A DNA stretch of 64,000 nucleotides from Verrucomicrobiia bacterium DG1235 (GTDB lineage: Bacteria; Verrucomicrobiota; Verrucomicrobiia; Opitutales; Opitutaceae), in the NCBI GenBank assembly GCA_000155695.1, contig DS990592.1, positions 1-64,000 on the forward strand, written 5' to 3'. The notes below the pieces were generated by a model that had not been told where the DNA came from, searched no databases, and saw nothing but the letters and a program-made list of their open reading frames with translations. Position 1 is the first letter of the stretch. Each line of letters begins with the position of its first letter. A program made the position numbers and the translations under genes. Of the stretch, positions 25,409 to 34,347 are shown one piece after another.

Positions 25409-26192
25409 ATTAAGGTTAGTAGCCTAGCTTCTCGGTAGGCTGTACTTCTCAAGAATGAAGGGGAGGCTGCGGCAAGAAGAATCGGCCTTGGAGGGCGTTT
25501 GTACGGACGTTTTGGGCAGAGTTGCCACGAGGGAGATTTGAAGTAGTTCAAAAAATGTGTGAGTTTCAACAGGCGCGGGAAGAGCGGCCACTGGAGGGAA
25601 GGTCGCCAGAGCGAATTGGGCGCATGATTCCCGTGAGCATTCGCGCATGCTAATTCCGATAAACTGAGGGTATGGGGCTGGGTATGCAGACGTTTCGGCT
25701 CTTGTTAGGTTTTGGAGCGATCTTTTCGGTTGCCTAGGAAAGTGCGGAAAGTGGCGAGGCGGGAGGGTTGCTGAAGAGGACTGAGCCGTTAGTGGGAGCA
25801 TCGCTTGGCCGGCTATGGGGAGTGCATTCGTTTTGCGCACTTCAGGCGTGAGTCAGGAGCGTCTTGGATTTGCCGAGTTGAATGAGCAGGAGTGAGATGG
25901 GAGTTGGGGTTGTGGTGGGGCGCGGTTGTTGTCGTGCAATTGCGTCGCGCCTGGGGCTTGAGGTGTTGCCGGCGGACATCGATTTTTGTGAAGGTGTGGA
26001 TGCTCTGTTTTGTATCCAACTTGTGGATAGCGTGTTGTTATGTTTCTATGTGATAGGTGGAAATCTGGGTAGCGATGAGGTTCGCTCGCGCATTTCATTT
26101 TGAAGGACTTGGAGTCTTTGTCTGGCAGAGAGGTGCGAATCGCGGCACGGGGCTGGTATTGATTTGAGTTGGTGTGGAGTGGGGGCTGAATA
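25409..26192. other. Long spacer upstream of the antiporter gene, no credible gene
   Basis: About 780 bp without a frame of gene-like composition. Frames open on both strands (for example 25424-25840 minus and 25882-26103 plus) lack ribosome-binding sites and recognisable domains. A small hairpin (GTAGCCTA with TAGGCTGT near 25412-25436) sits in what would be the antiporter leader. Function unknown. Confidence 0.4.
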
Positions 26193-26230
26193 CGAAAAAG
26201 CGGCTCAGGACCATGGGTCCCGAGCCGCTT
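26193..26230 (-). terminator. Rho-independent terminator of the DUF3347 gene and cus operon
   Basis: A 14-bp stem with one mismatch (AAGCGGCTC at 26198-26206 with GAGCCGCTT at 26222-26230; inner GGACC with GGTCC) is followed by TTTTTCG on the minus strand. It lies 18 bp beyond the stop codon at 26248. Confidence 0.85.
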
Positions 26231-26247
26231 GAATTGGAAAATATATT

Positions 26248-26823
26248 TTAGTGGCTGTGATGTTCGTGGCCGTCGTGGGAATGCTTTTCGGCGGCTGGGC
26301 CGTAAGCGGTTTTTTGCATGCCACAGGTGAGCATCATGGAGCCGTAGTAGGGGTTTCGTAGGTCGGAGGAATCTTGGAGCCACGCGCCGCCTTTGTTGTT
26401 GAAGGCCATGGGGCAGTACATTTGGTAGGCGGCGGTTTCGCTGCCGTGCGACTCCATTTGAGCGATCATGGCTTTGGAGAAGCCGAGGAAGGCGGAGCGG
26501 GCGGCGGCGATGTCGGCGGCTTGGGCGATGGCGTCGGAGGCTCCGCCTACTTCTGCGCAGCAGTCTGCTCCGTCGGTGGCGCACTCGGATTTTGACATGC
26601 CTTCTTGCAGGGCTGCCGCTGCGGATTTGGCGGCGGGTAGGTCGTCGCCGGCGAGGGCTTTTTGGATGGCGAAGTAGCTGGATAGGGTGCCGTCGTAGCA
26701 GGAGGCGTGGGCTTCGCCGTGGTGTGCGTCGGCGCCTTCGCTGACGCTGCAGGTACCGCAGTGCGCTTGAAGTGTGGATACGGCGGCGGTGGCCGCGATG
26801 AGTGATGCGATTAGTGTTTTCAT
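26248..26823 (-). CDS. Exported DUF3347-domain, metal-binding-like protein
   Basis: A 191-residue periplasmic protein: signal peptide (MKTLIASLIAATAAVSTLQA), a short Cys/His segment (HCGTCSVSEGADAHH), then a DUF3347 domain ending in the diagnostic YQMYCPMAFNNKGGAW and RNPYYGSMMLTCG motifs, and a His-rich tail (EKHSHDGHEHHSH). The same domain closes the CusB adaptor encoded in this operon. Free copies probably bind Cu or another soft metal in the periplasm. It is the last gene of the cus cluster; the 268-bp spacer to cusA contains two repeats. Confidence 0.85.
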   Translation of the reverse strand: MKTLIASLIAATAAVSTLQAHCGTCSVSEGADAHHGEAHASCYDGTLSSYFAIQKALAGDDLPAAKSAAAALQEGMSKSECATDGADCCAEVGGASDAIAQAADIAAARSAFLGFSKAMIAQMESHGSETAAYQMYCPMAFNNKGGAWLQDSSDLRNPYYGSMMLTCGMQKTAYGPAAEKHSHDGHEHHSH

Positions 26824-26884
26824 AATTATCGTTGGTTGTTGGTTTTAGTAAAACGGTTTTTGTTTTTGGAAAGGGGTTGTTTTT

Positions 26885-26914
26885 TTAACCACAAGAAGCA
26901 CAGAAAGCACAAAA
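26885..26914 (+). repeat. Solo copy of the family A repeat (TTAACCACA...)
   Basis: Thirty bases starting TTAACCACAAGAAGCACAGA and ending GCACAAAA match the terminal repeat that brackets the GxxExxY gene (30665-30694) with a few differences. It sits between the DUF3347 gene and cusA. Confidence 0.65.
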
Positions 26915-26965
26915 AATAGGCTTGTGTAGGTTGTGTGTTTTTTTGGCCACCAATCCAGCCGTCGC

Positions 26966-27018
26966 CGGTTAGGCTTTGGCGGACTTGCGGAGGCACGAAG
27001 ATTCACAAAGAGATTAGG
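26966..27018. repeat. Composite repeat: GCTTTGGCGGACTTGC block plus 'aggcacgaagattcac' unit
   Basis: The 16-mer GCTTTGGCGGACTTGC recurs exactly at 47456-47471. It is followed here by a family B-like unit (GAGGCACGAAGATTCACAAA). Both are dispersed intergenic elements. Confidence 0.5.
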
Positions 27019-27091
27019 TCATGTGCAGTTTGTTTTAACTGTAAAAAGCGCAGTAGGTGGTTGGGTTGACTGGGTTCTGGCTTTGTTGGGT

Positions 27092-30000
27092 TTAGTTTTT
27101 GGTTTTGAATTTTAGTTCCTCGAGGGAGCAGTAGAGGGCGGGGACGACGAAGATGGTGATGATGGCGAGGAGCATACCACCGAATGTGGGAATTGCCATG
27201 GGGACCATGACATCTGATCCGCGGCCGCTGGAGGTGATGACGGGCAGGAGGGCGAGGATGGTGGTGGCGATGGTCATCATGGCGGGGCGAACGCGGCGGC
27301 TGGCGGCTTCGATGATGCGCTCGTGGATCTCGGCGCGGGTTTGGGGTGGGGCTTCTTTGAAGCGTTGCTCGATGTAGGTGGCCATGATGACGCCGTCGTC
27401 GGTGGCGATGCCGAAAAGGGCGAGGAAGCCGACCCAGACGGCGACGCTGAGGTTGATGGTATGGATTTGGAAGAGGTCGCGCAGATCGGTTCCGAATATT
27501 GATAGGTTGAGGAACCAGTCTTGTCCGTAGAGCCAGATGAGGATGAAGCCGCCCGACCAGGCAACGGCGATGCCGGAGAAGACGAGCAGGGTGACGGGGA
27601 TTTTTTTGAATTGGAAATAGAGTACGAGGAAGATGGCGAAGAGGGCGATGGGAAGGACGAGCTGGAGCTTCTTCTCGGCGCGGACTTGGTTTTCGTAGCT
27701 GCCGATGGCTTTGGGGAAGGCGACGCCGGCGGGGAGTTGCCAGGAGCCGTCGTCCAGTTTGCCTTGGAGGTAGGCTTGGGCTTGCTCTACGACGTCGACT
27801 TCGGCGAAGTCCGGCTGCTTGTCGAAGATGACGTATCCGGCGAGGAAGGTGTTTTCGCTTTTGATGACTTGCGGGCCGCGTAGGTAGTTTATGGATGCAA
27901 GTTCCTTGAGGGGGATTTGGGTACCGTCGGGGGCGGCGACGAGGATAGACTCGATGGCTTCGATGGAGTCGCGCAGTTCGCGTTGGTAGCGCACGCGCAC
28001 GGGGTAGCGCTCGCGGCCTTCGACGGTCATGGTGATGGGCTTGCCGCCGACGGCGACTTCGATGACGTCTTGCACGGTTGTTATCTTGATGCCGTAGCGG
28101 GCGATGGCGTCGCGGTTGATCTCGATCTCGAGGTAGGGCTTTCCGACGATGCGGTCGGCGAAAACGGTTTTGGGGTTGATGGCGGGCACTTGTTTGAGAA
28201 GGGCTTCCAGCTCGAGAGAGACGCGTTCGATGGTGAGCAGGTCGGGGCCGGTGACTTTGAAGGCCATGGGGGCGCGGACGCCGCTTTGCAGCATGACGAG
28301 GCGGGCGGCGATGGGCTGAAGCTTGGGGGCGGAGGTGGTGCCTGGGATGGTGGCGGCGGCGACGATTTCGGCCCAGATGTCGTCGGGCGTCTTGATGTGG
28401 TCTCGCCATTGGCGGATAAGGTTGCCGTCTTCGTCCTTTGTGTATTCGGATTTATAGGACACGACAGTTTCGATCATGGAGATCGGGGCTGGGTCGAGCG
28501 GGCTGTCGACTCTGCCCAGTTTGCCGACGGCGATTTCGACTTCCGGGATGGCGTTAATGGCCATGTCTTGTTTTTTCAATACGTCCATGACTTCGCCGAT
28601 GGAGGCGTGCGGCATAGTAGTGGGCATGTAGAGGAATGAGCCTTCGTCGAGGTTTGGCATGAACTCCTTGCCGAAGCCCGGGAGGGCGTGGGCGGCGGCG
28701 CTGTAGGGGCTGGATTGCTGGACGAAAGCTGGCATCCAGGCGGTGAGGCGCGGCAGGCCGAGCCAGGTGGTGAAGCCGAAGAGGACGACGAGGAGAACGC
28801 CGCCGAGGAAGAGGGCTTTAGTTCTGAGGACCCATGGGAGGATGCGAGGGTAGAACCAAATGAATGCCAGCATGGGCAGGAGAAGTCCCCCGATGGCGAT
28901 GATGACGAAGAGGATGTTCAGGATGGTGTGTTCCGGGCCGAGTGGTTTCCAGACGGATGCGAGGTAGAGAGCGGTGAGGATGGCCACAAAGAGGCACGAA
29001 GAAGCGCGAAGATTTTTGGATGTTGCGCGGAGGTTTTTGGAAGGAAGGGCGGGTTTCTTTTTTTTGCCGGCGATGAGCCAGTGGGCGAGAGGTGGGATGA
29101 TGGTGAGGGCTACGATGATGGAGCCGATGAGAGCGAAGGTCTTGGTGTAGGCGAGTGGGCGGAAGAGGCGGCCTTCGGCGGCGACCATGGTGAAGACTGG
29201 GAGGAAGCTGATGACGGTGGTGGTGACGGCGGTGAGGACGGCTCCGCCGACTTCGGAGGAGGCGCGGTAAACGACTTCGAGGCGGCTTTCTTCGGGGTCG
29301 GCGGCGTCGAGGTGTTTGAGGATGTTTTCGACGACGACGATGCCCATATCCACGATGGTGCCGATGGCGATGGCGATGCCGGAGAGGGCGACGATGTTGG
29401 CGTCGACTTTGAAGAGTTTCATGCCGATGAAGGCAAAGAGGACTGCGAGGGGCAGGACGCCGGAAATGAGGAGGGCGCTGCGCAGGTGCATGACCATCAG
29501 GATGACGACGATGATGGTGACGAGAATTTCCAGAGTGACCGCTTCTTCGAGGGTGCCGAGCGTTTCGTAGATGAGGTTGCTGCGGTCGTAGAAGGGGACG
29601 ATTTGGACTTGGCTAAGGGTGCCGTCTGCGAGGGTTTTGCTGGGGAGGCCGGGGGAGATTTCGGCGATCTTGGCTTTGACGCGCTTGATGACTTCGAGCG
29701 GGTTTTCGCCGTAGCGGGTGACGACTACGCCGCCGACTGCTTCGGCTCCGGCTTTGTCGAGAGCGCCGCGGCGGAGGGCGGGACCGTACTCGATGGTGGC
29801 GACTTGGGCTAGCGTGATGGGGACGTTGTCGCGTTGGGCGATGACGGTTTTGCGGAGGTCGTCGAGGTTCTTGATGAAGCCGAGTCCGCGGATGACGTAT
29901 TCGGCGGAGTTGATCTCGATGGTGCGGGCTCCGACGTCGAGGTTGGAAGCGCGTACGGCATTGAAGACGTCTTGTAGTGGGATATCGTATACGCGTAGGG

Positions 30001-30637
30001 CATCGGGATCGACATCGACTTGGTACTCTTTGACGTAGCCGCCGATGGAGGCGACCTCGGCGACGCCGTCGACGCCTTGGAGGGCGTAGCGTACATACCA
30101 GTCTTGGGTGGAGCGGAGTTCTTGCAGGTCCCAGCCGCCGGAGGGGTTTCCGTCTGGGGCGTGGCCTTCGAGGGTGTACCAGAAGACTTGGCCGAGGGCG
30201 GTGGCGTCGGGGCCGAGCTGTGGGGATACGTTTTGAGGAAGGGTGCTGGAGGGGAGGCTGTTGAGTTTTTCGAGGATGCGGCTGCGGGTCCAATAGAACT
30301 CGGCGTCTTCTTTGAAGATGATGTAAATGGAGGAGAATCCGAACATGGAGTAGCTTCGGATGGTTTTGACTTCGGGCAGGCCGAGCAGGGCGGTGGTGAG
30401 CGGGTAGGTGATCTGGTCTTCGATGTCTTGCGGGGAGCGGCCCATCCATTCTGTGAATACGATTTGCTGGTTCTCGCCGATGTCGGGTATGGCGTCGACG
30501 GGCACGGGGTCGCGAGGAAGGGAGTTGATTTGCCAGTCGAAGGGGGCGACGATGACGCCCCAGAGTATCATGGCGGCGGTGAAGAGGATGACCACGAGTT
30601 TGTTCTCGAGGCAGAAGCGTATGAGGTGGTTGGTCAT
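27092..30637 (-). CDS. cusA: Heavy-metal efflux RND transporter, CusA/CzcA family
   Basis: A 1181-residue HME-RND pump, against about 1040-1050 in most relatives. Residues 1-40 hold TM1; family blocks include DPVPVDAIPDIGENQQIVFT, MGRSPQDIEDQITYPL and the proton-relay helix GTIVDMGIVVVENIL. RLVMLQSGVRAPMAFKV and LPGFGKEFMPNLDEGSFLYM are typical of the Cu/Ag-type branch. The extra length is mainly between TM6 and the second periplasmic part, where added hydrophobic segments occur together with a repeat-encoded peptide (KNLRATSKNLRASS). It would take Cu(I)/Ag(I) from the periplasm and drive it through CusC using the proton gradient. Neighbours cusB and cusC support this; specificity is by homology. 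Confidence 0.92.
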   Translation of the reverse strand: MTNHLIRFCLENKLVVILFTAAMILWGVIVAPFDWQINSLPRDPVPVDAIPDIGENQQIVFTEWMGRSPQDIEDQITYPLTTALLGLPEVKTIRSYSMFGFSSIYIIFKEDAEFYWTRSRILEKLNSLPSSTLPQNVSPQLGPDATALGQVFWYTLEGHAPDGNPSGGWDLQELRSTQDWYVRYALQGVDGVAEVASIGGYVKEYQVDVDPDALRVYDIPLQDVFNAVRASNLDVGARTIEINSAEYVIRGLGFIKNLDDLRKTVIAQRDNVPITLAQVATIEYGPALRRGALDKAGAEAVGGVVVTRYGENPLEVIKRVKAKIAEISPGLPSKTLADGTLSQVQIVPFYDRSNLIYETLGTLEEAVTLEILVTIIVVILMVMHLRSALLISGVLPLAVLFAFIGMKLFKVDANIVALSGIAIAIGTIVDMGIVVVENILKHLDAADPEESRLEVVYRASSEVGGAVLTAVTTTVISFLPVFTMVAAEGRLFRPLAYTKTFALIGSIIVALTIIPPLAHWLIAGKKKKPALPSKNLRATSKNLRASSCLFVAILTALYLASVWKPLGPEHTILNILFVIIAIGGLLLPMLAFIWFYPRILPWVLRTKALFLGGVLLVVLFGFTTWLGLPRLTAWMPAFVQQSSPYSAAAHALPGFGKEFMPNLDEGSFLYMPTTMPHASIGEVMDVLKKQDMAINAIPEVEIAVGKLGRVDSPLDPAPISMIETVVSYKSEYTKDEDGNLIRQWRDHIKTPDDIWAEIVAAATIPGTTSAPKLQPIAARLVMLQSGVRAPMAFKVTGPDLLTIERVSLELEALLKQVPAINPKTVFADRIVGKPYLEIEINRDAIARYGIKITTVQDVIEVAVGGKPITMTVEGRERYPVRVRYQRELRDSIEAIESILVAAPDGTQIPLKELASINYLRGPQVIKSENTFLAGYVIFDKQPDFAEVDVVEQAQAYLQGKLDDGSWQLPAGVAFPKAIGSYENQVRAEKKLQLVLPIALFAIFLVLYFQFKKIPVTLLVFSGIAVAWSGGFILIWLYGQDWFLNLSIFGTDLRDLFQIHTINLSVAVWVGFLALFGIATDDGVIMATYIEQRFKEAPPQTRAEIHERIIEAASRRVRPAMMTIATTILALLPVITSSGRGSDVMVPMAIPTFGGMLLAIITIFVVPALYCSLEELKFKTKN
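28982..29043 (-). repeat. Family B repeat inserted in frame inside cusA
   Basis: GGCCACAAAGAGGCACGAAG (28982-29001) and the following AAGCGCGAAG match the intergenic units at 32977 and 61738. The next bases repeat the GCGCGAAGATTTTTGG wording once more as GCGCGGAGGTTTTTGG. On the coding strand this reads as the tandem peptide SKNLRATSKNLRASS followed by CLFVAIL, with no stop or frameshift. Confidence 0.7.
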
Positions 30638-30664
30638 TTGATGGTGGGCACAGCTATTTTTTAA

Positions 30665-31115
30665 TTAACCACAGAAAGCACAAGAGGCACAAAAGAGGAT
30701 AGGCTTCGTTATTATTGAGCTAGTTTTTTGATCTGGAGTTTCGGATTACCGAAATTGATGAGGATTCCGTGTTTCAGGTTTGTGGCTCGTAGGTAGGCTA
30801 GCACTTGGGCGGTGTGTTCGTCAGCGAGCGTTTTAACTGCTTTGAGCTCGATGATGAGAGTGTCGTTTACGAGTAGGTCTGCGAAGTATTCGCCGAGCAG
30901 CGTTCCGTCTTCGTCTGTGACGGGGATAGGATGTTGTTGTTTGATGTTGAGTCCGATTTTGCGGAGACGATGGGCTAGGCCGTTTTCATATACTTTTTCG
31001 AGAAGGCCGTTTTTTAAGTAGCAATGTAGGGCGTAGGAGGTTTCGCGTATAGTGTCAGTGAGGTTTTGGATATCTGTATTCATTATTTTGTGACTTATGT
31101 GCTTTTTGTGGTTAA
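30665..31115 (-). mobile_element. Candidate small mobile unit: GxxExxY gene bounded by 30-bp inverted repeats
   Basis: Positions 30665-30694 (TTAACCACAGAAAGCACAAG then AGGCACAAAA) and the reverse complement of 31086-31115 agree at 26 of 30 positions by eye. Between them lies only the 123-residue GxxExxY gene. The outer TTAA of the right end supplies the TAA stop codon of cusB. No transposase is encoded, and target duplications beyond a possible TTAA could not be shown. The unit interrupts an otherwise compact cusC-cusB-cusA operon. Confidence 0.5.
30712..31083 (-). CDS. GxxExxY family protein (PD-(D/E)XK-like)
   Basis: A 123-residue protein with the defining motif in NGLLEKVYENGLAHRL (G..E..Y near residues 25-31). 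Later blocks are VTDEDGTLLGEYFADLLVND, LIIELKAVKTLADEHTAQVL and YLRATNLKHGILINFGNPKL. The D...E-x-K arrangement (ADLLVND...IIELKAV) fits a PD-(D/E)XK nuclease-like core. The family is widespread in Verrucomicrobia, Bacteroidetes and Planctomycetes, usually as stray single genes, and its role is not established. Here it is placed between cusB and cusA and flanked by inverted copies of a dispersed repeat, so it is unlikely to serve metal efflux. Confidence 0.85.
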   Translation of the reverse strand: MNTDIQNLTDTIRETSYALHCYLKNGLLEKVYENGLAHRLRKIGLNIKQQHPIPVTDEDGTLLGEYFADLLVNDTLIIELKAVKTLADEHTAQVLAYLRATNLKHGILINFGNPKLQIKKLAQ

Positions 31116-32881
31116 AACTCTTTTTCTAGGGTGCCGCAGGTTAGCATCATGGAGCCGTAGTAGGGGTTGCGGAGCTCTGGGGTGGACTGGAGCCAGCTGG
31201 CGCCTTTGTTGTCGAAGGCCATGGGGCAATGCATTTGGTAGATGCTGGTGTCGATGACGTCCGGGTTTTTGGATACGGTCTCTATGAGGGCGTTGGAGAG
31301 GGTTTCGAATCCGGCGCGAATGGTGGCGAGGGTGTCGCTTGCATGGAGTTCGTGGATGTGGGAGTCGGAGGCTTGAATGGCGGCGATGGCGGCTTGGGCG
31401 GCTGTGAGGTCGTCGGCTGCGAGGGCGGCTTGAAGGTCGAGGTAGTGTGGAAGGATTTTTTGAGGGGAAGTGAGCTGGATTGTGGATTGGGTGGGTGGAT
31501 TCATCATGCTGGGCTTGGCTTGAATTTGGAGGGCGGAGTCGATTTTGAAGGCTCCGCGGGTGACGACGCGGTCGCCTTCTGATAGGCCGGAGGTGACGAG
31601 GTAGACGTCGCCGGCTCGGGGGCCGAGGTCGATCTCGCGTCCTTCGTAGGTGGGACGGTCTGTATTTGGTGTTTGGATATAAACGACGGCTCGTTTGCCG
31701 GTGCGAAGCACGGCGGAGGCGGGGATGACGAGGGGGGCTTGGGCGTTGGGGTCTTGCACGTAGCCGAGTTGTTCGGCGGGGACGAGGTCCATGCCGCAGA
31801 TGTCGCACTGGCCGGCGTGGTCTTTGACGATTTCCGGGTGCATGGGGCTGATCCACTTGCCGGCGTATTCGGGGGCGTAGACGGTGCCGGACTGGGCGAG
31901 GCGGGAGTGGGCTGTGGCGCGGGCGAACATGCCGGGCTTGAGTTTTCGGTCTGTATTGGGAACGTTGATACGGACTGCGACTGTACGGGTCTTGCGGTCA
32001 AGCTCGGGATCTATGAAGGCGATGATGCCTTGGAAGGTTTGGCCGGGGATGGCTTCGACGGAGAAGGTTACGGTTTGGCCGAATTTGAGCCAGGGGAGAT
32101 CGGACTCGAAGGCGTCGAGGCGGAGCCAGAGTTGGTCGAGGTCGACGATTTTGAAGAGGGGTTGGCCGGTTTTGAGGTAGTCGCCTTCGTTGACGTTTTT
32201 GGATACGACGATGCCGTTGATGGGGGCTTTGAGCTCGAAGTGGTCTTGGGCGACGCCGTTTTTGATAAGGGAGTCGATTTGTTCGGGGAGGAGGTCCCAG
32301 AGGCGGAGCTTTTCGCGGGCGGCTCGGGTGGCGGAGCTTTGGGGATCGTAGCGGTGGGCGGTGAGGAGCTCGGATTGGGCGGCGAGGAGTACAGGGCTGT
32401 AGACGCGGGCGAGGTGGTCGCCTTTGGCGACGGGAACTCCGGCGAAGTTGACGAAGAGTTTGTCGATGCGTGCGGGGAAGCGGGCGGTGAGGGATTTAAC
32501 TTTCGTCTCGTCGTAGTCGAGCTTGCCGACGAGGCGGATTTCGGCTTCGGGGAAGCGGCGTTCTATGAGGGAGGTTTCGATGTCGGCGAGGGCGCGGGAG
32601 CTTTCGCTCATGCTCATGGAGCGGGGGCCGAGATCGGCTGTGGATTCGTTTGAGAGCGGGATGAGGTCCATGCCGCAGATGGGGCAGTCGCCGGGCTCGG
32701 GCTGCTGGACTTGGGGGTGCATGGAGCAGGTCCAGGTGGAGGGCTCGTCGTGTTGGTGGGTGGCGCTGGGTGTGGGGTCAGCGGACGAAGAGGGTGATGA
32801 CGGTGCGGTGCAGCGACCGAGGAGAAAGGTGATGGCTAGGAGGGCGATGACTCCGATTATTGGATACGTTTTTGTTTTCAT
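31112..32881 (-). CDS. cusB: RND efflux periplasmic adaptor, CusB type, with C-terminal DUF3347
   Basis: A 589-residue membrane-fusion protein starting MKTKTYPIIGVIALLAITFL (membrane anchor or uncleaved signal; the Cys after LLGR has no good lipobox). It contains two heavy-metal-binding modules (CSMHPQVQQPEPGDCPICG near residue 55 and MHPEIVKDHAGQCDICGMDL near 305), the barrel-sandwich and helical hairpin domains (FPARIDKLFVNFAGVPVAKG; LKAPINGIVVSKNVNEGDYL), a beta-barrel part and a C-terminal DUF3347 domain (MHCPMAFDNKGASW; NPYYGSMMLTCG). It links CusA to CusC and passes metal. The start at 32881 is preferred over 32947. The stop codon lies within the inverted repeat of the GxxExxY unit. Confidence 0.92.
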   Translation of the reverse strand: MKTKTYPIIGVIALLAITFLLGRCTAPSSPSSSADPTPSATHQHDEPSTWTCSMHPQVQQPEPGDCPICGMDLIPLSNESTADLGPRSMSMSESSRALADIETSLIERRFPEAEIRLVGKLDYDETKVKSLTARFPARIDKLFVNFAGVPVAKGDHLARVYSPVLLAAQSELLTAHRYDPQSSATRAAREKLRLWDLLPEQIDSLIKNGVAQDHFELKAPINGIVVSKNVNEGDYLKTGQPLFKIVDLDQLWLRLDAFESDLPWLKFGQTVTFSVEAIPGQTFQGIIAFIDPELDRKTRTVAVRINVPNTDRKLKPGMFARATAHSRLAQSGTVYAPEYAGKWISPMHPEIVKDHAGQCDICGMDLVPAEQLGYVQDPNAQAPLVIPASAVLRTGKRAVVYIQTPNTDRPTYEGREIDLGPRAGDVYLVTSGLSEGDRVVTRGAFKIDSALQIQAKPSMMNPPTQSTIQLTSPQKILPHYLDLQAALAADDLTAAQAAIAAIQASDSHIHELHASDTLATIRAGFETLSNALIETVSKNPDVIDTSIYQMHCPMAFDNKGASWLQSTPELRNPYYGSMMLTCGTLEKEF

Positions 32882-32921
32882 TTGGAAAGTGGGTTGTTGG
32901 CTGGATGGGTTGTGTTTTGTT

Positions 32922-32951
32922 TTAACCACAGAAAGCACAAGAGGCACAGAA
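32922..32951 (+). repeat. Solo copy of the family A repeat in the cusB-cusC spacer
   Basis: TTAACCACAGAAAGCACAAG followed by AGGCACAGAA is nearly identical over 30 bp to the left end of the GxxExxY unit at 30665-30694. Confidence 0.75.
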
Positions 32952-32976
32952 GATGTTGGGATTTGGTTGTTTTTAT

Positions 32977-33010
32977 GGCCACGAAGAGGCGCGAAAAGTC
33001 ACGAAGAGAT
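32977..33010 (+). repeat. Family B repeat (GGCCACGAAGAGGCGCGAA...)
   Basis: GGCCACGAAGAGGCGCGAAA plus AGTCACGAAGAG, a unit shared with 28982 (inside cusA) and 61738. It lies 26 bp beyond the family A copy in the same spacer. Confidence 0.65.
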
Positions 33011-33051
33011 CGGGTTGTGTGGTTGTATTTGGGTGATGGGGGTATTGGGAG

Positions 33052-34347
33052 TTATTCGAGCCAGGTGCCTCCGGAGAGGGTGGCGAGTTTCCAGCGGGCT
33101 TGCCAGGTGTCGGCGGCGGCGCGCCAGTATTCGGTTTCGAGGTCGAGGAGGGTGCGTTCGTTGTCAATTACATCGAGGATGGTGGCGTTGCCGGATTGAT
33201 AGCTGGAATTGAGGATTTCGCGGGACTGGCGGGCGAGGGGGAGGAGTTGCGTGTCGAAACGTTGGATACGGGCTTGGGAGTCTTGGAGCTGGGCTATGGT
33301 GGCTCGGGCGGTGGCGAGGAGCTGTAGCTCGGTTTCGGCTATTTGGGCGGCGATGGCGTCTTTTTCGAGAGAGGCTTGGCGAGCGAGGCCGTTGTTGGCT
33401 TTGGCCCAGACGGGAAGAGAGATGCCGACCATGATGGCCCAGGGGTCGTCGCCGCTGCCGGGGGTGGCGGAATTCATGGCTGGGCCGGTGCGGATGTAGT
33501 TTAGGCCGACGGAGAAGTCGGGGCGGTTGGCGAGTCGGGCGAGTCGCGAGCGGGCGTCTTGGCTTTGGTCGAGGGCGCGGAGGAGGGCGAGCTGGGGGGA
33601 GCGGGTGGGGATGGCGTCGAGCCATTGCGTGGGCGATGAGGAAAGGGGGGCGGGGACGTGCCAGTCGATGGTGGGAATTGGGGGTGAGCTGGATCTGCCG
33701 AGGGAGGCTTCGAGTTTAGCGGCGGTGGTGGTGCGGAGGGTTCGTTGGCGGGCGAGCTGGTCTTCGAAGCGTCCGATTTCGACTTGGAGGCGGAGGAGGT
33801 CGGTGAGGGGACTTCCGGCACGGACGCGGTCTTGGATTATGGGCTCGAGTTGGCGGAGCAGGGTGAGGTTTTGCTTTTGGATGGCGATGGCTTTGTCGAG
33901 GTAGGCGAGTTCGAAGACTTGGTTGGAAACGGTGTCGACGAGGGCGAGCTGAGTCTGGGCGTAGGCGTGCCAAAGGGATTCGGCTTGGGCGCGGGCGGTT
34001 TCCTTGCGGCTGTCGAGCTTGCCGAGCCAGGGGATGGGCTGCTGGAGCATGATGGCTTGGCGTTGGGGGCCGGTGCGGGTCTGGATGGACTCGACGAAGT
34101 GGGTGATTTGGGCGGAGGGATTGGGGAGGGCTCCGGCGAAGTCGATGGCGGCTCGGGCGGCTTGGTAGCGGTGTTCGCTGGCGTCGAGGGATGGGCTGGA
34201 GCGCAGGGCTTCTGTGATGAAGGGGCCGGCGATGGCTCCGCTGGAAATGGCGGGGTCGACGGTCGGGAGCGTGGTGTCCTGAGCGTGTGCGTGGAGGCCG
34301 AGCGCGAGGGCTGCGGCGAGAGAGAGGGCGCGGATGTAAGTCTTCAT
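33052..34347 (-). CDS. cusC: TolC-family outer-membrane protein of the cus efflux operon
   Basis: A 431-residue outer-membrane efflux protein with signal peptide MKTYIRALSLAAALALGLHA. Two OEP repeats follow with long helices (YRAEAA-type segments such as QSLEASEHRY are replaced here by SPSLDASEHRYQAARAAIDF; later NSSYQSGNATILDVIDNERT). It lacks the lipobox of Escherichia coli CusC. Neighbouring cusB and cusA make it the exit duct of a heavy-metal pump. It is the second gene of the cluster, 161 bp behind the Cys/His-rich gene. Confidence 0.88.
   Translation of the reverse strand: MKTYIRALSLAAALALGLHAHAQDTTLPTVDPAISSGAIAGPFITEALRSSPSLDASEHRYQAARAAIDFAGALPNPSAQITHFVESIQTRTGPQRQAIMLQQPIPWLGKLDSRKETARAQAESLWHAYAQTQLALVDTVSNQVFELAYLDKAIAIQKQNLTLLRQLEPIIQDRVRAGSPLTDLLRLQVEIGRFEDQLARQRTLRTTTAAKLEASLGRSSSPPIPTIDWHVPAPLSSSPTQWLDAIPTRSPQLALLRALDQSQDARSRLARLANRPDFSVGLNYIRTGPAMNSATPGSGDDPWAIMVGISLPVWAKANNGLARQASLEKDAIAAQIAETELQLLATARATIAQLQDSQARIQRFDTQLLPLARQSREILNSSYQSGNATILDVIDNERTLLDLETEYWRAAADTWQARWKLATLSGGTWLE

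Follow-up and report, generated by a model that had tools for sequence, protein, structure and literature searches.

REPIN-RAYT systems combine REP doublets with REP-associated tyrosine transposases (TnpA-REP) (PMC3116915, PMC8266576). We analysed a stretch of 64,000 nucleotides from Verrucomicrobiia bacterium DG1235, hereafter the window, in which a gene of the GxxExxY family lies between cusA and cusB in a comparable arrangement. As in REPIN-RAYT, a small gene of nuclease type, here a predicted nuclease, is accompanied by copies of a short extragenic sequence; this repeat also occurs elsewhere in the genome, as singlets and as facing doublets capable of forming hairpins, and the type of repeat goes with the lineage of the protein. 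The components differ. RAYTs are HUH (Y1) tyrosine enzymes, whereas GxxExxY proteins are of the PD-(D/E)XK type, and the window protein matched PDDEXK_3 and GxxExxY profiles alone, with no HUH tyrosine transposase among them. REP sequences are palindromic and carry GTAG, whereas the GxxExxY repeats, which we call arms, are direct heptamers repeated at 9–10 bp, with GTAG found in 1/84, 0/16 and 1/54 loci. The preliminary description of this locus had likened it to a RAYT. That analogy stands for the layout, since the gene is flanked by inverted repeat copies (100/125 and 54/75 loci) and gene-less singlets and facing doublets occur as well (the doublets as two hairpins in the window genome, in six species at one intergenic site, and in genome G005). 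It fails for both the protein and the repeat, so the GxxExxY unit is not a member of REPIN-RAYT and resembles it in layout alone.

Three further groups invite comparison. In predicted fold and catalytic residues the protein is like Cas4 and RecB-type PD-(D/E)XK nucleases (SSO0001, lambda exonuclease, MGME1), although it has only 123 residues and its neighbours here are cus rather than cas genes. Inverted ends, gene-less derivatives and one clear unit-sized duplication recall MITEs and insertion sequences; unlike these, gene-bearing units show no detected target-site duplication, and the copies are mostly old, syntenic and diverged. S23 proteins are known from rRNA intervening sequences. In the same genomes, S23 genes of the four-helix-bundle family (TIGR02436) share with GxxExxY the framing of a small gene by inverted arms of tandem units: such arms were found at 20 of 29 S23 loci (L067–L096, with L072 left out at a contig end) versus 1 of 522 shifted windows, with units of the AGTAGCG, GGCTGTA and GTTCTGG types. 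The two protein families are unrelated, however, and the S23 period is 7 bp (18/20) as opposed to 9–10 bp.

The GxxExxY family is named in the open PMC literature (PMC8934634, PMC12085832, PMC9756366). Our search of that literature, with subscription journals and preprints outside its scope, found no paper on GxxExxY and flanking repeats.

Results

A GxxExxY gene framed by inverted arms between cusA and cusB

The unit occupies positions 30665–31115 of the window (451 bp) and consists of an arm, the GxxExxY gene and a second arm. The outer arm, 3' of the gene (30665..30694, plus strand), opens with TTAACC followed by the heptamers CACAGAA, CACAAGA and CACAAAA, which point inward at a 9-bp spacing, a design shared by most other loci. 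The gene itself (30712..31083, minus strand) encodes a PD-(D/E)XK nuclease-like protein of 123 aa in which E29, D69, E79 and K81 are present. The arm 5' of the gene (31086..31115, minus strand) is an inverted copy of the first and stops 2 bp short of the start codon. When 30665–30694 was compared with the reverse complement of 31086–31115, 26 of 30 positions were identical, and both sequences begin with TTAACCACA. Chance does not account for the arms: a pattern derived from them, AACCACARAAARCACAARARRCACAAA, with 3 mismatches allowed, matched the window four times, twice at the arms of the unit itself, and matched none of 100 shuffles. The preliminary description had reported a 30-bp inverted repeat that encloses the GxxExxY gene alone and gives cusB its stop codon, and each part proved correct: the repeat is real, 30712–31083 is the only ORF inside it, and the cusB TAA (31112–31114, minus strand) lies within the right arm.

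The flanking genes are a cusA/czcA-type RND pump gene (27092..30637, minus strand) and a cusB-type adaptor gene (31112..32947, minus strand), and the GxxExxY gene is on the same strand as this cusA-cusB type operon. Two solo arms of the window type, for which no facing partner was found within ~600 bp, adjoin the operon: one in front of cusB (32924..32950, plus strand, 1 mismatch to the pattern) and one downstream of cusA (26887..26913, plus strand, 2 mismatches). An arm-like repeat of another type (CACGAAGAGGCGCGAAAAGTCAC) is found at 32980..33002 (plus strand), 56 bp past the start of the 32924 solo arm. The listed GTG start of cusB (32947) falls within the solo arm at 32924–32950, and translation more likely begins at the Met of MKTKTYPIIG, which lies further in. 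A further arm-like repeat, at 28985–29007, lies within the cusA reading frame and is possibly an in-frame insertion.

A predicted nuclease core

The window protein matched TIGR04256 over residues 8–121 (125.8 bits against a cut-off of 35, E = 1e-36) and PF13366, PDDEXK_3 (113.4 bits against a cut-off of 22, E = 1e-32). Its D69, E79 and K81 are the PD-(D/E)XK residues, and D..(D/E)xK occurs in 103 of 105 loci. An alignment of 42 rows, comprising the window protein and named loci (L232, L247, which has a stop codon, and L263 were omitted), gave an AlphaFold model with a mean pLDDT of 96. The nearest solved fold was that of Cas4 SSO0001 (Foldseek 3e-4, Z 9.8, rmsd 4.2 Å over 100 residues), and lambda exonuclease and MGME1 were also among the top Foldseek rows. 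A sequence search of the PDB with E up to 1 returned no relative. Weak Cas4 and PDC matches were all that a defence-gene library gave; phage families gave no match to the window protein and a weak CRISPR-associated match to one relative. Judging by the predicted fold, GxxExxY is likely a stripped-down Cas4/RecB-like nuclease core.

Inverted arms at GxxExxY loci across bacteria and archaea

Framing was scored as the best inverted match between the 220 bp on either side of the gene, with a score of 14 as a pass; the controls were equally sized windows shifted along these loci, and mismatched left-right pairs from different loci. The GxxExxY gene is present in 40 of 57 related genomes, with 165 matches. 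From these 40 genomes we took 105 loci, mostly those with the highest scores, and 20 added loci raised the coverage to 125 of the 165 matches. An inverted match was found at 84 of the 105 loci versus 12 of 1642 shifted windows, and mismatched pairs passed in 3.3% of cases (n = 2100). With 16 of the 20 added loci also passing, the total is 100 of 125, leaving 25 that fail. An outside set was formed from the best 80 of 578 confirmed relatives, of which 5 near contig ends were dropped to leave 75, drawn from Chloroflexota, Cyanobacteria, Acidobacteria, Bacteroidota, Planctomycetota, Proteobacteria, Methanosarcinales and others. Of these loci from bacterial phyla and archaea, 54 passed and 21 failed, compared with 24 passes among 3851 shifted windows. 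The preliminary description had asked whether GxxExxY loci carry inverted ends in general, and most of them do, in both sets, against fewer than 1% of shifted windows.

Main-type heptamers (at least three, C[AG]C.[AG]A[AGT]) pointed inward in 73 of the 100 passing loci and outward in 7; the 20 with neither orientation have other unit types (AAGCCAG, ACAGGAG) or some other inverted repeat. The corresponding numbers for the 54 passing outside loci were 43, 6 and 5. Some GxxExxY copies are without main-type arms, namely L032, L062, L123, L127 and L150; L032 has direct copies of a small-hairpin cluster (CCACGCGCAGCGTGGATC...) on its flanks, perhaps another repeat partnership.

Design of the arms

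The arms are mostly rows of heptamers, CRCRRAK in most, with relatives such as CGCTAAT also occurring, and the heptamers are spaced 9–10 bp apart, about one DNA turn. Arm types that differ from the window's include CGCGAAT at L128 and CACAGAG at L042. Identity within arms was 0.394 at a lag of 9 and 0.376 at a lag of 10, compared with ~0.275 after shuffling, and the best lag among the 6–12 tried was 8, 9 or 10 in 79 of 84 loci. Arm-to-arm mismatches were counted with the heptamers defined from one arm alone, at those loci where a heptamer could be defined (n = 77), and affected 119 of 1486 heptamer positions (8%) versus 102 of 303 spacer positions (34%; p = 3e-28). Between the two arms, it is the heptamers rather than the spacers that stay alike. 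The median unit length is 470 bp, with median gaps of 7 bp between the upstream arm and the start codon and 5.5 bp between the stop codon and the downstream arm.

Arms and protein change in step

Across genera, arm similarity tracks protein identity (Mantel r 0.38, 0 of 1000 permutations), and the correlation persists between different genomes once syntenic pairs are removed (r 0.27, 0 of 1000). The 105 loci make only 56 synteny groups by single linkage (the largest with 13, 12 and 9 members), so part of this co-variation reflects shared descent. Mapped on a protein tree of 70 loci, position 7 of the heptamer requires 8 changes versus a mean of 31 over 200 label shuffles, and positions 2, 4 and 5 likewise require fewer changes than shuffled labels. 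The two arms of one unit also resemble each other more than they resemble their counterparts in other species: over 136 syntenic unit pairs, a unit's own arms had a mean score of 21.8 versus 10.1 for same-side arms between species. The own-arm match was the better one in 130 of the 136 pairs, which indicates that the arms evolve together while the site stays put.

A scan of all alignment columns picked out residue 21 (window numbering), which is Asn in 25 of 28 loci with T at heptamer position 7 and Arg or Lys in 24 of 29 loci with G. The rule was kept in all 8 added loci with T at this position. In other phyla, 43 of 48 loci with G have Arg or Lys, and the sole T locus (L244) has Lys. As the supported independent contrasts number only two, residue 21 is a candidate rather than a proven specificity residue.

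Solo arms and gene-less hairpins

The 5.78-Mb window genome (G000) contains 22 sites for the arm pattern versus 2 for the reversed pattern. They comprise the arms of 2 units, the 4 arms of 2 gene-less hairpins of 75–77 bp, and otherwise solo arms, so that most window-type arms in this genome have no facing partner within ~600 bp. In the second unit with window-type arms, either side is itself a partial hairpin. The genome has 7 GxxExxY copies, 5 of them with inverted arms that follow one design and differ in sequence. One copy, L037, has an in-frame stop yet retains both arms. The motif GATCGGGTTGTG or near variants adjoins several solo arms in the genus and is also present within some hairpin loops (L011–L030, L285).

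Beyond this genome, a generic arm pattern occurred 1266 times in the 40 gene-bearing genomes (6.83 per Mb) versus 11 times in the 17 without the gene (0.26 per Mb); the reversed-pattern control gave 7 and 1. The ends of the 165 gene copies could account for at most 330 of the 1266 arms. The genome with the most pattern arms among the 57 was G043 (182). In a phylum sample of 115 genomes, 9 of which are in common with the 57-genome set, the GxxExxY gene was present in 52. Arms were found in 42 of these 52 versus 3 of the 63 without the gene (p = 3e-18), 10 gene-bearing genomes thus having no arm of the searched pattern, and in the 106 new genomes alone the counts were 35 of 45 versus 3 of 61 (p = 1e-15). 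The reversed-pattern control over the 115 genomes totalled 49, of which 42 were in G059. Within one family of 21 genomes (f28), the sole gene-bearer has 21 arms; no arm occurs in 18 of the remaining 20 genomes, and a single arm in each of the last 2.

Gene-less hairpins with inverted ends measure ~75–120 bp. We compared one intergenic site, that of the L036 unit, in ten species, with a left flank alignment that is weak in G015 and G019. A unit lies there in four of them (G000, G003, G005 and G019). Two facing arms form a hairpin with no gene in G001, G004, G006, G007 and G015, and G002 has a remnant together with a hairpin of a different type. In the five species with the gene-less hairpin, its arms resemble a unit elsewhere in their own genome (4 of 120 permutations as good, ties included, with G002 omitted for its differing hairpin and remnant), and in G001, G006 and G007 they are unlike the other unit types tested there. 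This suggests action in trans, though these species have a common history at either site. A genus-wide test of scattered arms against resident units, in which arm lists were shortened, repeats collapsed, recognised unit arms excluded, and G001 and G003 omitted, gave a weak signal (377 of 5000 permutations as good); after column correction it was positive in 5 of 6 genomes, most strongly in G005, and in the opposite direction in G007. Many scattered arms match none of the units found in their genome, which is frequent in G004, G006 and G007.

In G005, many facing doublets ~50 bp apart carry arms of the unit L128. Among the 20 CGCGAAT hairpins inspected in this genome (L309–L328), many are embedded in larger dispersed repeats, whose flanks are shared and occur on either side in varying combinations; the larger repeats, rather than the hairpins, may be what multiplied there. 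At L349 (776–1320) and L350 (537–808), facing arms surround other small ORFs, at intervals of 544 bp and 271 bp, and arm pairs may carry other cargo.

Inheritance and movement of the unit

The preliminary description had suggested a possible minimal mobile unit, to be checked for a TTAA target and for strains with an empty site between cusB and cusA. We found the unit missing from all nine other cusA/cusB junctions (two in G003, two in paralogous operons of G000, and one each in G001, G002, G005, G006 and G007): none had arms, and the best arm score was 8.5 versus 30 in the window. At no junction could the exact boundary be read, the intergenic sequence being too diverged. Gain in this lineage is the simplest reading, and the unit between cusA and cusB is probably such a gain, with loss elsewhere as the possible alternative. 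The nearest proteins found to the window copy are L035 in the same genome (76% identical) and L118 in G002 (75%), and the window copy is therefore not a recent duplicate.

One clear duplication was found in G043, where the units L065 and L137 (each 1441–1905) lie on one contig ~2.3 kb apart and are 95% identical over 465 bp. On either side the identity breaks off no more than ~11 bp from the arm end. The two units have different surroundings, and inspection of the pair revealed no target duplication. The two units fall into one synteny group by construction because the fetched stretches overlap. Across 84 units, a search for target duplications of 2–9 bp with offsets gave none clearly above permuted pairs; at k = 4 the count was 5 versus a permuted maximum of 4, located inside the arm ends. 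Neither a TTAA target nor any 2–9 bp target duplication thus finds support. A search with L042 as the query retrieved a GxxExxY gene from 8 of 72,556 plasmid records and from no phage record. We infer that the gene-bearing unit is mostly inherited vertically, with rare moves. The idea of a mobile unit accordingly stands in part: the 95% pair and the nine empty junctions speak for it, while the 56 synteny groups, the mere 75% identity of the most similar copy in the window genome and, with the L042 query, the scarcity in plasmids and absence from phage records speak against frequent recent movement.

Discussion

The window unit is probably a self-contained element, made of a predicted sequence-specific nuclease and its cognate dispersed repeat, with a build like that of REPIN-RAYT from unrelated parts. 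Under the mechanism that we propose, the GxxExxY protein would bind the arms, probably as an oligomer whose subunits each read one heptamer, all on one face of the DNA, and would then cut or nick at the arms. Repair of such cuts would copy arm pairs, and now and then whole units, to new sites, and the same repair would overwrite diverged arms, amounting to concerted evolution. In this way the gene's ends would continue to fit the protein it encodes, and solo arms and hairpins lacking the gene would be seeded. A template-switch process could also be what keeps the inverted arms alike.

If the arms were operators at which GxxExxY represses itself, with scattered arms regulating other genes and no cutting or spread involved, the position of the upstream arm just ahead of the start codon would be explained, as would the two solo arms adjoining the cus genes, and co-variation with the protein would require binding alone. 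A pure operator role is nevertheless unlikely in our view: a matched arm is kept right after the stop codon as well, gene-less facing hairpins recur that it leaves unexplained, nuclease residues are retained in nearly all loci, and G043 duplicates the unit from arm to arm. That last duplication, bounded by the arms, would suit a cut-and-paste DNA transposon with the arms as terminal inverted repeats, GxxExxY as the transposase and the hairpins as MITEs, as would the terminal inverted repeats with gene-less derivatives and the nine cus junctions that lack the unit. Yet target duplications did not rise clearly above permuted pairs and were not seen at the G043 pair, the most similar copy in the window genome is 75% identical, synteny is conserved across genera, plasmid records are few and phage records none with the L042 query, and window-type arms in the window genome are mostly solo; we hold this reading to be improbable.

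Another agent might multiply the arms, with GxxExxY targeting or policing them, and the frequent arm types that have no matching unit in G004, G006 and G007, along with the G005 hairpins inside larger repeats, fit such a role. It is quite improbable, however, given that most loci have the arms around the GxxExxY gene itself and that gene-free genomes are nearly armless, the opposite of what policing would produce. Lastly, as with the intervening sequences of 23S rRNA, the arms could pair in the transcript to form a stem that encloses the gene, with selection acting on this stem. The window transcript does fold with its arms paired (z -2.8), and S23 proteins share a like layout. Selection on a stem would favour G-U type differences between the arms, but in the sense RNA these transitions are rarer than those of the A-C type (53 versus 87; 30 versus 53 with one taken per synteny group). 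A stem has no need of a heptamer period or of position-specific conservation either, and positions 26000–34000 of the window had no Rfam match at gathering thresholds. We therefore consider the RNA-stem reading very unlikely.

The nuclease-and-repeat reading of the window unit can be extended into a broader proposal, which we offer tentatively and with some doubt. Bacteria and Archaea would contain a so far unrecognised class of nuclease-repeat elements, with GxxExxY proteins as its enzymes. In these elements a minimal PD-(D/E)XK nuclease would be one that recognises heptamers spaced by a helical turn according to a simple code (Asn at residue 21 for T at position 7, Arg or Lys for G), cuts the arms, and spreads and homogenises arm pairs in trans; S23, with arms of 7-bp period, would be a second, independently invented lineage.

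Overall, our results suggest a widespread and little-known partnership between a predicted nuclease and a DNA repeat dispersed through the genome. The GxxExxY family is common and has no known role, and a cognate DNA partner would make it part of a directly testable enzyme-substrate pair, for which natural variants of either partner are at hand, as is a candidate residue for specificity. If the proposed partnership is true, it would account for a large class of the short repeats scattered over these genomes (the CACAGAGGA, CGCAGATGA and CGCGAATGG types), and it would mean that the RAYT way of life also arose from unrelated parts.
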